Assembly: GCA_016215705.1 (NCBI GenBank)
Contig: JACRIR010000098.1
Location: forward strand, 1-26,067
Source of the DNA: Candidatus Poribacteria bacterium
Lineage (GTDB): Bacteria; Abyssobacteria; SURF-5
Length of the DNA: 26,067 nt
Reading direction: 5' to 3'
Shown: positions 7,989-12,140 of the stretch, piece by piece
How the letters are laid out: every line of letters begins with the position of its first letter
Position numbering within the stretch: the stretch's first letter is position 1
Notes under the pieces: generated by a model
What the model saw: the letters and a program-made list of their open reading frames with translations, nothing else
Told to the model about the DNA's origin: nothing
The model's database searches: none
Made by a program: the position numbers and the translations under genes

Positions 7989-8594
7989 ATGAGACAGAAA
8001 GCTCTTGCATCACAGGAATATCTTGAGGTGGCCCGAAGATGCGCGGAGGAGCATCTAAAGGGGCGATTGCTCGAACACACTCGCGGATGCGTTGAAATGG
8101 CGCAGAAGCTGGCGCGTCGATTCGGGCTCGATGCGGATAAGGCCGCGACGGCCGCATATCTTCACGATATCACGAAGGCGTTCTCGCTCGAACAACAGAC
8201 CGCGCTTCTGCAGAAACTGGGCATGTCGCCTGCGGAACTGGCGTCGCATTTGCCCGCGGTAGTTCATGGATGGCTGAGCGCCCTGATAGCGAAAAGAGAA
8301 CTCGGAATCGATGATCCCGAAGTGCTTCAGGCGATCGAAGCGCACAGCACGGGTTGCGCCGGAATGTCCGATTTGTCCAAAGTTGTCTTTATCTCCGATT
8401 TCATCGAGCACACGCGAAGGTTTCCAAAAGCCGCCGAGCTTCGCGGCCGCGAGTATCCCACCCTTGACGAAGCCGTCATAACCATCCTCAGACGCAAACT
8501 CGAATACTTGCTCGAGGGAAGGGCAATCGTCGACCGCCGCGCAATAGAATGCTGGAACGAGCTGGTGGAGAGAGCCAGACAGAAAGAAACGTAG
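7989..8594 (+). CDS. yqeK: YqeK-family HD-domain Ap4A hydrolase (symmetrical)
   Basis: A 201-residue HD-domain phosphohydrolase. The metal-binding residues are visible in LLEHTRGCVEMA, the HD pair in AAYLHDITK, the motif VVHGWLSA, and the later ISDFIEHTR. YqeK proteins hydrolyse diadenosine tetraphosphate symmetrically. It follows nadD almost without a gap. In many genomes rsfS comes next; here the operon stops and runs into a convergent ATPase/TOPRIM cassette with only 34 bases between the stop codons and no clear terminator. Confidence 0.88.
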   Translation: MRQKALASQEYLEVARRCAEEHLKGRLLEHTRGCVEMAQKLARRFGLDADKAATAAYLHDITKAFSLEQQTALLQKLGMSPAELASHLPAVVHGWLSALIAKRELGIDDPEVLQAIEAHSTGCAGMSDLSKVVFISDFIEHTRRFPKAAELRGREYPTLDEAVITILRRKLEYLLEGRAIVDRRAIECWNELVERARQKET

Positions 8595-8628
8595 GTGGCT
8601 GCGCGGACGGCGCATTTCGGGCCAAAAA

Positions 8629-9285
8629 CTATGGCACCGTCCCCTTCAAGGTGGATAGGAATTCAATGAACGGCTTGAAACATTGGGGACATCTGTCTGC
8701 AACCTCTTGATAATTGACCACGCTCAAAATCATCGGAGCATCGACCGTATCCCTGTAGTGCTGGCCGAATTTGTTGAAGAGTTCTTCAACAATGCGCTTT
8801 GGCGGATGATTGTGGTCTTGATCCTCGACCGGATTTCGCCATGTCGGCGTAAGGTGTTTTGCTCCAAGGCGTGACCTCAACGCTTCGTGAGAGGCCAAGA
8901 TGAGAACTTCCATGTCGTGTTTGAAGCAAAAGACCTTGAAGCGGTTCTTGGCATGAAAGTCGTCGGGAGCTTCTTTGCCAAGCAGGGCAGCATGGAAGTT
9001 ATTGAAGATTCCTCTCTCTAACTCCTCTACCGTCTCATGCGGGAATGCTCTGTTCTTGGGATAGAGGTCCGGCATGGCTACCACGACCGCGTGTGGATCG
9101 TTCAAGAGGATGTTTGCTGCTTTTCTTGGGACTTTTGTCAATACAGATTCCTTTTTATCGCCCGGAGGAGCTTCAAAGAAGACCACTGCAACGCCTTCGG
9201 TTCTTTTCTTCTCCAGCAGAGGCAACAGAAGTGCTTCCATAGCCGCCTTGTCGGAGGGGCCCTCAACATAAACAATGATTCTCAT
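8629..9285 (-). CDS. DUF4276-like TOPRIM-fold protein, partner of the upstream ATPase
   Basis: A 218-residue protein opening with MRIIVYVEGPSD, the TOPRIM-type first strand with the conserved acidic residue Glu8. A second acidic site is Asp73 in VVVAMPDLYP. A later HDMEVLILA (His123, Glu126) matches the H/E-LL pattern of DUF4276 proteins. The classical DxD is reduced to a single Asp here, so nuclease activity is plausible but not certain. Its ATG overlaps the ATPase stop codon in an ATGA junction, the sign of a coupled two-protein unit. Family assignment is by pattern recognition. Such ATPase plus TOPRIM pairs resemble OLD, Gabija and PARIS anti-phage systems; function here is inference. The last residues (LKGTVP) are encoded by a GGGGACGGTGCC stretch similar to intergenic repeat sequence. 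Confidence 0.7.
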   Translation of the reverse strand: MRIIVYVEGPSDKAAMEALLLPLLEKKRTEGVAVVFFEAPPGDKKESVLTKVPRKAANILLNDPHAVVVAMPDLYPKNRAFPHETVEELERGIFNNFHAALLGKEAPDDFHAKNRFKVFCFKHDMEVLILASHEALRSRLGAKHLTPTWRNPVEDQDHNHPPKRIVEELFNKFGQHYRDTVDAPMILSVVNYQEVADRCPQCFKPFIEFLSTLKGTVP

Positions 9286-10451
9286 GCGAGCTGCTCCAAC
9301 TCGTCGCTGCGGTGCATGAATTCGATCTCCTCTGCGCCGAAATCCTTAAGATTCGCCTTCAATACTTCTGAGTCTTTTGGTCGAATGAAAAGAGCCTCTC
9401 CACTCTCCTTCCGAAAAACCGCTATCCGAGATATGTCAAACTGCATGAGAAAGTATGAGGCATGCGTAGCCAAGAAAATCTGCGTTCGGTCGCAAGCTTT
9501 TTCGAACAATCCTGCCAGAATAGGCAATGTGCGCGGATGAACTCCTTGGTCAGGCTCGTCAATACAAATTAGCGATGGAGGATTCGGTTGCAGGGAGAGA
9601 GCAGTCCAACAGATGAGGCGCAAAATGCCGTCGGACAGATCCGCAAGGCTCAAGTCGCGATCTATGCCTTCTTCCTGCCAGAATGCAATAACTTCCCCAG
9701 GACCTCCACGAGCTTTCACCGTCAATCCCCTAAAGCCAGGAATAGCGGAACGCAAGTGCTGTTGAAGTTCCTCAAAGACAGGACGATGCTCGGTCATAAG
9801 ATAGTGAAGAAGGGAGCTTAAATTGCCGGCATCCTCATGTAGAACGGGCTCTTGTTCAATCGGAACCGACTTACGAATCTTCTCGTTTGCTATGTTGAAA
9901 GAGCTATAAAACCTCCAACCCTCAATATACTCCCGCAGGCTATAAAGAGTTGTCATTGCAGGGTTTGTCATAGCGCTAAGAGCAAGCTGATTTGGGCGCT
10001 TAAGAGAGATTTCTTGTTTCTTCAGTTTTCGTGATTCTGGATCTTGGACGACACCGCGACGCTCCCTTATGTTCATGAATAAATAACGCTCTTCAAACTG
10101 TGGGTCCAAGGGCTTGGACGATTGAACTCGTTCGAAGGAAACATGGGTACGCCCTACGGGGCCCATTAACTCGCCTTGATATTGAATCGGGATTTTCTTC
10201 CCTGAATCAAGTTCAAGGCTCCACCAAAACCTTTCCGGACCGGGGATATGAAATATTAACTGTCCAATGGAACCTGTAACGATCTCAGGAGGGACGTCTT
10301 GACGAACACTATTTCGCAAGAATCTGAGGAACTCAAAAAGGCTTGATTTCCCGGCGCCGTTTGCCCCGACGAATATCTCCAGAGGGCCAAAGAACGCCAA
10401 GAAGTCTCTGAATGGTCTGTATCCCTGAATCTTAACGGAAAGAAGCCGCAT
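9282..10451 (-). CDS. OLD/AAA_21-like ABC-type ATPase
   Basis: A 389-residue SMC/ABC-type ATPase. Walker A GANGAGKS is at residues 29-36, the signature LSDG at about 272-275, Walker B LICIDEPD with Asp298/Glu299, and the H-loop residue His330 in FLATHAS. The region between (about 45-265) is large and not a transporter domain; no membrane segment is seen. This layout matches the AAA_21/AAA_15 ATPases that partner TOPRIM proteins. Start ATG 10451 was preferred to 10481 because AGAAAGG lies about 9 bases upstream and the protein then begins MRLLSVKIQGYRPF, the usual beta-strand before Walker A. The gene is more A+T-rich (43-47% GC in sampled lines) than the shape genes beside it. Confidence 0.82.
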   Translation of the reverse strand: MRLLSVKIQGYRPFRDFLAFFGPLEIFVGANGAGKSSLFEFLRFLRNSVRQDVPPEIVTGSIGQLIFHIPGPERFWWSLELDSGKKIPIQYQGELMGPVGRTHVSFERVQSSKPLDPQFEERYLFMNIRERRGVVQDPESRKLKKQEISLKRPNQLALSAMTNPAMTTLYSLREYIEGWRFYSSFNIANEKIRKSVPIEQEPVLHEDAGNLSSLLHYLMTEHRPVFEELQQHLRSAIPGFRGLTVKARGGPGEVIAFWQEEGIDRDLSLADLSDGILRLICWTALSLQPNPPSLICIDEPDQGVHPRTLPILAGLFEKACDRTQIFLATHASYFLMQFDISRIAVFRKESGEALFIRPKDSEVLKANLKDFGAEEIEFMHRSDELEQLA

Positions 10452-10537
10452 AAGACAAGACCTTTCTGCTAACCAACGCATGCCAACTTGTTGTCTGACC
10501 TTATTAAAGATGCTTGTCCAAGCTAGCCAATTCTAAC

Positions 10538-10567
10538 ATAATGAATTTGGCGCACGCAACATGTCAA
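10538..10567 (-). promoter_or_regulatory. possible promoter of the ATPase/TOPRIM cassette
   Basis: On the minus strand, TTGACA (10567-10562) is followed after 18 bases by CATTAT (10543-10538). It lies just downstream of the FAD oxidoreductase stop and about 90 bases before the ATPase start. It would give the cassette expression independent of the long operon upstream on the same strand. The -10 is imperfect. Confidence 0.4.
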
Positions 10568-10580
10568 GCGGAACCTTCTC

Positions 10581-12140
10581 TCAAGTAAGAAGTTTCTTTA
10601 TTGCTTCTGCTGCTTGATTTCCCGCTGTCACTGCTTCGGGAAAGTGGGTGACCGGATTTAGGTATTCGGCATTGGCGAAGATGATGCTTCCGAATGGCTT
10701 GCCGAGTTTTGGAAAGACTTCGGTCATGTATCCGGGGTACGGAACGCAATAGTTGCGGTTGCGCAGGAATACGTGAATGGCATCGACTTTTTCGATTGCA
10801 CCGGGAAAGCGCATATCGAGTTCACTCAAAACCTGAGCGGCCATCTTCACCATCGCATCCCTGTCCTGCACGAGGTCGACGTCTTCCACGGACATCTTGT
10901 TGAAGCAGGTCATTATGTTCGGCCTCTGAGGTCCCTTGTCCCGACTGAACCAATCCTGAATCGTTATGGCCTGCACCGTGCAATCCATGACGCCCAGGCG
11001 GTAACCGCGCTGATAAATGGGTTTGCGGGAACAAAAGTGGAACGTCGGATAGCTGAACCTGCGCATCTGTCCCATCGCCTCTTTGAGCGCCGGGGGAATG
11101 TCTTCGATGATTTCCTTTGCGATATTAGCCTCGGCGTTGACGATAGCCGCTTTCGCGCGAACGGTGGAAACTTTTCCGTCATGCCAGTACGTTGCCAGCA
11201 CGTTGCCGTCCGCATCATGCCGAACCTTATATACAAAGGCGCTCGTGAGTATCCGTCCCGGGCCGGCCTCGTCTATCTTCTTTGCCAATGTGCGGTTTAT
11301 CAGGCCCAGTCCGCCCGGGAACGAACAAATGCCTGAGTCCTCGACGTAATCGCCTTCCCTGGCAGATGCAATGGCATAGTACGCCGAAACGTCACTCGTA
11401 TGCGGGTAAGGTTTCGCAAGGAGCTCGTACCATTTCCTGAACTCGGATGAATAACCTTTCATGAATTCGGAAAAGGGTATCTTGTCGAGCTCGTCCTTGC
11501 GGCCCTCGACGTCTATCTTCGGCATATCAATGAAATAGAATCTTATCATGTCGCGTTTGACCGCCAAAGGCAGCGGCATGCGGATGAAACCGAGAACACT
11601 GTAGGGATTGGCTATTTGAACGTTTCCCGGAAAGACAACGACGAGTGGGCTGGTATCTTTATCCGGCGACAAACCCAAGTCGCGGCATAGGTCCCACACT
11701 GAGTCGGCCCATGTGCCGGGCATCCCTATATATTGGCCGCCGAGCGAGAAGGGCACGCCTTCCCATTCGCAGTACATCGAGTTGCCGCCGAATTCCGGCA
11801 GAGCCTCAAGCAATAGAATATTGCGATCCTTCAGACGATAAGCCGCCGTCAGCCCGCCCGCTCCGCCGCCGACTATTACGACGTCCGTTTCCCGCTCCGG
11901 CTTCGGAGTTTCCGCAAGTCTTCCCTCACGGAACATACGGTTGGGGCTGTCGGGGAAAACCTCGCCGTGGAAAGTTATCGCGCTCTCGATTTTGTCCGGA
12001 GGAACGGGTCTCAAGCTCCGGCTTCGCGCCTTATGGTAATCCCATCCGACTCTTGCTCCGAAGGCGCCGGCGCCGAGAGCGATCACTCCACCGCCTGCCA
12101 GCAATGCCTGCCTGATAAATGCGCGTCTGGGGGTGTTCAT
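10581..12140 (-). CDS. Tat-exported FAD-dependent oxidoreductase (amine-oxidase/phytoene-desaturase fold)
   Basis: A 519-residue flavoprotein. The N-terminus is a twin-arginine signal (PRRAFIRQ, with a hydrophobic Ala/Gly stretch at about residues 12-30), so it is probably exported folded. The dinucleotide-binding motif DVVIVGGGAGGLTAAYRL covers about residues 86-103, followed by a second-strand acid in LLLEALPEFGGNS, the pattern of flavin amine oxidases and related desaturases. The C-terminal FAD-contact segment (FANAEYLNPVTHFPEAVTAG) is also present. Substrate is unknown. It is the last gene of the shape operon, 55 bases after the RNase E/G stop, an unusual position for such an enzyme. Confidence 0.8.
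   Translation of the reverse strand: MNTPRRAFIRQALLAGGGVIALGAGAFGARVGWDYHKARSRSLRPVPPDKIESAITFHGEVFPDSPNRMFREGRLAETPKPERETDVVIVGGGAGGLTAAYRLKDRNILLLEALPEFGGNSMYCEWEGVPFSLGGQYIGMPGTWADSVWDLCRDLGLSPDKDTSPLVVVFPGNVQIANPYSVLGFIRMPLPLAVKRDMIRFYFIDMPKIDVEGRKDELDKIPFSEFMKGYSSEFRKWYELLAKPYPHTSDVSAYYAIASAREGDYVEDSGICSFPGGLGLINRTLAKKIDEAGPGRILTSAFVYKVRHDADGNVLATYWHDGKVSTVRAKAAIVNAEANIAKEIIEDIPPALKEAMGQMRRFSYPTFHFCSRKPIYQRGYRLGVMDCTVQAITIQDWFSRDKGPQRPNIMTCFNKMSVEDVDLVQDRDAMVKMAAQVLSELDMRFPGAIEKVDAIHVFLRNRNYCVPYPGYMTEVFPKLGKPFGSIIFANAEYLNPVTHFPEAVTAGNQAAEAIKKLLT

Follow-up and report, generated by a model that had tools for sequence, protein, structure and literature searches.

Between the genes for an amine-oxidase-type FAD protein and a YqeK-like HD protein, the 26,067-nucleotide stretch analyzed here (referred to as the window) carries two overlapping genes that a preliminary description had read as a split OLD-like defence unit, consisting of an ABC-type ATPase and a DUF4276-type TOPRIM effector. 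To investigate if this pair is an anti-phage system and, if so, whether it represents a new combination, we analyzed both genes, their encoded proteins and the surroundings of their relatives in other genomes.

Organization of the gene pair

The genes and the elements associated with their expression are as follows.

8629..9285, minus strand: DUF4276 TOPRIM-fold putative nuclease effector (HEC-01B type), 218 aa
9282..10451, minus strand: OLD/Rad50-class ABC ATPase (HEC-01A type), 389 aa
9282..9285, minus strand: ATGA stop/start overlap of the ATPase and DUF4276 genes
10538..10567, minus strand: possible sigma-70-like promoter (TTGACA-18-CATTAT), 10/12 consensus bases, not above chance in the region

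Both open reading frames were found at the coordinates originally assigned to them, and the overlap that had been reported between them is real. The ATPase and DUF4276 genes are adjacent in all 23 named relatives, and their junction reads ATGA in 21 of these and GTGA in the other two. The sequence AGAAAGG lies immediately 5' of the ATPase start codon at 10451, and an alternative in-frame ATG at 10481 is possible. Since the relatives align from position 10451 and AGAAAGG is located upstream of it, the coordinate initially chosen for this end of the ATPase gene is sound. With GC contents of 0.482 (ATPase) and 0.498 (DUF4276), the two genes are the lowest in the window, while the other genes range from 0.51 to 0.59. 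The ATPase gene was also confirmed to be richer in A+T than the nearby shape genes, with a GC of 0.482 and a GC3 of 0.487 compared to a GC of 0.529-0.580 and a GC3 of 0.60-0.70 for mreB-rodA. The suggestion that the pair has a promoter of its own gained little from the analysis, as it relies on a single 10/12 match to a sigma-70-like sequence in a region that contains three such matches with 2.0 expected by chance.

Protein families, folds and the putative active site

The ATPase matched the Pfam families PF13304 (AAA_21, 93.5 bits) and PF13175 (AAA_15, 52.6 bits), and its top model among 107 PADLOC families was PDLC04175 (HEC-01A, E 8.8e-53). Matches to NCBIfam were exclusively sub-threshold, and the weak similarity to the mad3 ATPase of MADS (NF047739, 91 bits) is far under the 420-bit cut-off of that family. 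All four nucleotide-binding motifs noted earlier are present and invariant or near-invariant in 23 homologues.

10341..10367, minus strand: Walker A, GANGAGKSS (GANGAGKS being residues 29-36), core residues invariant in 23 ATPases
9627..9638, minus strand: ABC signature, LSDG, residues 272-275
9555..9560, minus strand: Walker B, D298-E299, invariant in 23 ATPases
9462..9464, minus strand: H-loop, H330, invariant in 23 ATPases

The structural model of the ATPase (mean pLDDT 86.9) aligned with Z scores of 18-20 to the Septu/retron protein PtuA, SMC and Rad50 heads, and AriA (18.1 for the latter). The ATPases of the Myxococcota relatives (L061:1967-3655 and L062:5298-7004) are extended at the N-terminus by about 170 residues, which may represent an additional sensor domain.

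For the small protein, the proposed profile search returned DUF4276 (PF14103, 69.8 bits with a cut-off of 30.2, covering positions 1-191 of the 192 in the profile) as the only Pfam match at E values up to 1, and DUF4435 was not among the matches. This agrees with the earlier view that the effector differs from the DUF4435 effector of PARIS. All six PADLOC matches were to HEC-01B (PDLC04188, E 5.9e-13) and none to AriB. No match to the DUF4276 protein was obtained in NCBIfam, or among solved structures searched by sequence with the single protein or a profile. The small protein could have turned out to lack a TOPRIM fold; the opposite was observed, as AlphaFold2 predicted a TOPRIM-like fold with high confidence (pLDDT 90.6) from a 21-sequence alignment. 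The top Foldseek matches of this model were OLD TOPRIM regions (E 3.2e-4 for the best, to 1e-3). In VIA-align the model reached Z 11.0 with the uncharacterised archaeal protein 2p62, 10.3 with the C-terminal region of Burkholderia OLD (BpOLD) and 8.0-8.5 with GajA, while unrelated Rossmann-like folds did not exceed 7.1.

The following positions make up the putative active site.

9262..9264, minus strand: E8, putative metal-A ligand (like BpOLD E400), invariant in 21 DUF4276 proteins
9250..9252, minus strand: D12, putative metal-B ligand (like BpOLD E404), invariant in the 21-sequence alignment
9061..9069, minus strand: D73-L74-Y75, D-x-Y replacing the TOPRIM D-x-D, D73 and Y75 invariant in the 5- and 21-sequence alignments
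8908..8910, minus strand: E126, putative metal-B ligand (like BpOLD E508), invariant in the 21-sequence alignment

Of the residues highlighted in the preliminary description, E8, D73, H123 and E126 did not vary among five aligned sequences, and E8, D73 and E126 remained invariant in the 21-sequence alignment, while H123 was either His or Tyr in the latter. In total, E8, D12, D73, Y75 and E126 were invariant among the 21 sequences, and the D12 position is occupied by Glu in two more distant relatives of the 5-sequence alignment. The metal ligands are E400, E404, D455, D457 and E508 in Burkholderia OLD (PMC6755086) and E377, D381, D431, D433 and E480 in Thermus OLD (PMC7049728). E8 and D12 are spaced by four residues like E400 and E404, and the 53 residues from D73 to E126 equal the distance from D455 to E508; in the AlphaFold2 model a helix begins at E126. 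Judging from fold, motif order and spacing, E8, D12, D73 and E126 plausibly match the two-metal ligands of OLD.

The reduced TOPRIM motif had been regarded as unusual, but D-x-Y with its single Asp is common to all relatives aligned here. E8 and D73 are thus accompanied by Tyr75 where the OLD superfamily has the second Asp of a complete D-x-D, and we therefore describe the protein as OLD-like instead of filing it as a canonical OLD nuclease. Since the second Asp of the motif reaches metal A only through water in Burkholderia OLD (PMC6755086), metal-dependent nuclease activity of the DUF4276 protein is plausible despite Tyr75.

Distribution, genomic surroundings and horizontal transfer

A DUF4276 profile scan of 84,980 species genomes yielded 23 loci, all with an ATPase gene directly upstream of the DUF4276 gene. 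Their hosts belong to at least seven named phyla, including KSB1, Acidobacteria, Desulfobacterota, Myxococcota, Cyanobacteria, Bacteroidetes and Planctomycetes. The DUF4276 frame is shortened in one cyanobacterial locus (L060) and split into two pieces in a Planctomycetota locus (L068:7001-7693), where the upstream ATPase is intact.

The neighbourhoods of these relatives are reported as a plain listing of loci. In the KSB1 locus (L049) the pair is part of a BREX operon, with pglX, the pair, an AlbA_2 protein gene, abiEi, pglZ and brxL all on one strand and a 4-nt overlap between pglX and the ATPase start. Genes resembling JetC/JetD (Wadjet) occur within 7 kb of the pair in L061, and a gene for an HmaA-like helicase is located directly upstream in L062. 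In addition, a PLD-SNF2 helicase gene was found near the pair in L070, and the copy in L021 has a fragment of an N6/N4 methylase on one side and a type III restriction gene on the other. In five filamentous cyanobacteria (L052, L054, L055, L056 and L060) the pair separates ureB from ureC in the same orientation as both, which places a putative defence unit within the urease genes, and in L060 it is followed by a PIN-like gene. In a Bacteroidetes genome (L058) the pair is flanked by hrcA and the gene for a nuo-type antiporter. MNT/HEPN- or PIN-like genes were noted by eye near some relatives.

The closest relative by DUF4276 identity is the KSB1 copy, with 66% for DUF4276 and 80% for the ATPase; the window ATPase is also 80% identical to one Acidobacteria copy. 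Between the window and the same KSB1 and Acidobacteria hosts, Rng is only 41% and 50% and MreB 61% and 62% identical, respectively, while the two other genomes of the window's family share 94% (MreB) and 76-77% (Rng). The pair is missing from both of these family genomes (n=2) and is thus not core; universal presence at this place, which would have spoken against the reading of the preliminary description, was not observed. Together, the high ATPase identity relative to Rng and MreB and the absence from the family relatives indicate that the pair was acquired by horizontal transfer from another lineage. In dN/dS comparisons of the window with the KSB1 and Acidobacteria copies synonymous sites were saturated, and few changes underlie the comparisons among cyanobacteria. 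The lower identity of DUF4276 than of the ATPase to the KSB1 copy reflects faster divergence, as expected if the effector meets a variable target, and other causes are possible.

The order pcnB-nadD-yqeK is conserved in both family relatives (with dapA also in the sister genus genome G001), and the genes after yqeK differ. The argument that yqeK would often be followed by rsfS proved uninformative, as the frames after yqeK in the two sister genera did not appear rsfS-like by eye. In G001, the FAD oxidoreductase-rng-rSAM-rodA block is on the same contig about 94 kb from the yqeK block, which places the window pair where two blocks meet that lie apart in the sister genus. At positions 7989-12140 of the window the yqeK block adjoins the FAD oxidoreductase-rng-rodA block. 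Tentatively, the block orientation fits a single inversion with its breakpoint at the pair. No tRNA gene, long direct repeat or integrase-like frame was found at the site, and the copy lies outside any defence island.

The same genome contains a second HEC-01 pair (L019:3203-4984, G000:C127) composed of a 385-aa ATPase (HEC-01A, E 3.9e-156) and a 204-aa HEC-01B protein with a weak DUF4276 match, as well as a partial HEC-01A-type ATPase frame that has no intact N-terminal half and is located near a contig end (L018:201-956, G000:C139).

Class assignment and proposed function

The window pair is a member of HEC-01 (Hma-embedded candidate 01 in PADLOC-DB), a catalogued and little-studied candidate defence type, and not a new combination. 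Both genes have HEC-01 as their top models, which supports the defence reading and at the same time argues against novelty. The order of ATPase and adjacent DUF4276-type gene is that of HEC-01, and relatives are embedded in or located beside defence loci; the sole difference is the isolated position of the window copy, surrounded by housekeeping genes. In the open literature no paper containing "DUF4276" was found, and "HEC-01" appeared as a defence system in one paper only, as part of a list. Reading the two genes as a split OLD-like unit, in which the ATPase is paired with a DUF4276 TOPRIM effector, is likewise supported by the PF14103 match, the predicted fold and the relatives in defence loci.

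Gabija GajA and the Class 1/2 OLD proteins also combine an ATPase with a TOPRIM domain that is among the closest solved folds (Z 8-10) and share the E-x3-E/D, D and late E ligand pattern. In contrast to the two separate window genes, their domains are fused, Class 2 has a UvrD-like helicase neighbour, and their motif is D-x-D instead of D-x-Y. BREX recruits TOPRIM-linked OLD-ABC dyads as backup suicidal effectors (PMC12839542), and the KSB1 relative within a BREX operon resembles this arrangement. Unlike in those systems, PglZ was not detected in the window's host genome (92% complete assembly), and the pair therefore apparently acts without BREX here.

Taken together, we consider it probable that the two genes, gained by horizontal transfer, form an anti-phage unit that belongs to type HEC-01 and to the OLD-ABC/TOPRIM dyads. 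In such a unit, the ATPase and the DUF4276 protein would form a complex in which the ATPase may serve as the infection sensor, responding for example to a phage anti-restriction protein or an altered nucleotide or DNA state. ATP-dependent switching would then release or activate the DUF4276 TOPRIM nuclease, which could end the infection by two-metal-ion cleavage of nucleic acid from the host or the phage. The assignment of sensor and lock to the ATPase and of nuclease to DUF4276 follows the analogy with AriA and AriB of PARIS, which act on tRNA; there, AriA releases the two-metal TOPRIM ribonuclease AriB (PMC12409363). Points against a defence unit are the housekeeping surroundings of the window copy and several relatives and the Tyr in place of the second Asp of the TOPRIM motif.

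These surroundings would also suit a domesticated DNA-repair or chromosome-maintenance ATPase/nuclease pair, and the ATPase fold is close to Rad50 and SMC heads as well. A non-defence role is conceivable given that the archaeal OLD-family protein Cran1 acts in the cell cycle (PMC12796447), but the patchy, horizontally transferred distribution of the pair, its absence from both family relatives and the copies inside BREX and beside Wadjet genes make this explanation improbable. We regard a toxin-antitoxin or mobile-element maintenance unit devoid of an anti-phage role as very unlikely: the Pfam label of AAA_21 is a putative AbiEii toxin, a TOPRIM effector could be toxic and MNT/HEPN- or PIN-like genes occur near some relatives, but no close relative was found in plasmid, phage and viral-contig collections with the DUF4276 protein as query, the site has none of the mobile-element marks listed above, and the association with chromosomal operons is stable. 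A PARIS system in the strict sense (Class 4 OLD) shares the split architecture of adjacent ABC ATPase and TOPRIM nuclease genes, the ATPase fold and matches to the AriA models (E 7.4e-25), but HEC-01A scores far better and the effector belongs to DUF4276 instead of the AriB-type family, which makes this assignment highly doubtful.

Within the preferred reading as an HEC-01 defence unit, a further, speculative proposal that we hold with low confidence is that DUF4276 forms a distinct TOPRIM effector class with a D-x-Y site and a substrate unlike those of OLD, Gabija and PARIS. Together with the ATPase it might constitute a backup unit that is both portable and self-sufficient. Such a unit could join BREX, Wadjet, type III restriction and Hma-like loci, and on its own could also insert into housekeeping operons, for example that of urease, and rely on their transcription.

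The window pair provides a clean stand-alone copy of a catalogued, little-studied candidate defence pair and offers a specific active-site hypothesis comprising E8, D12, D73, Y75 and E126. If the pair does defend its host, the OLD/PARIS/Gabija group would gain a further, separate family of TOPRIM effectors, and the view of such dyads as backup weapons of BREX loci would be strengthened.
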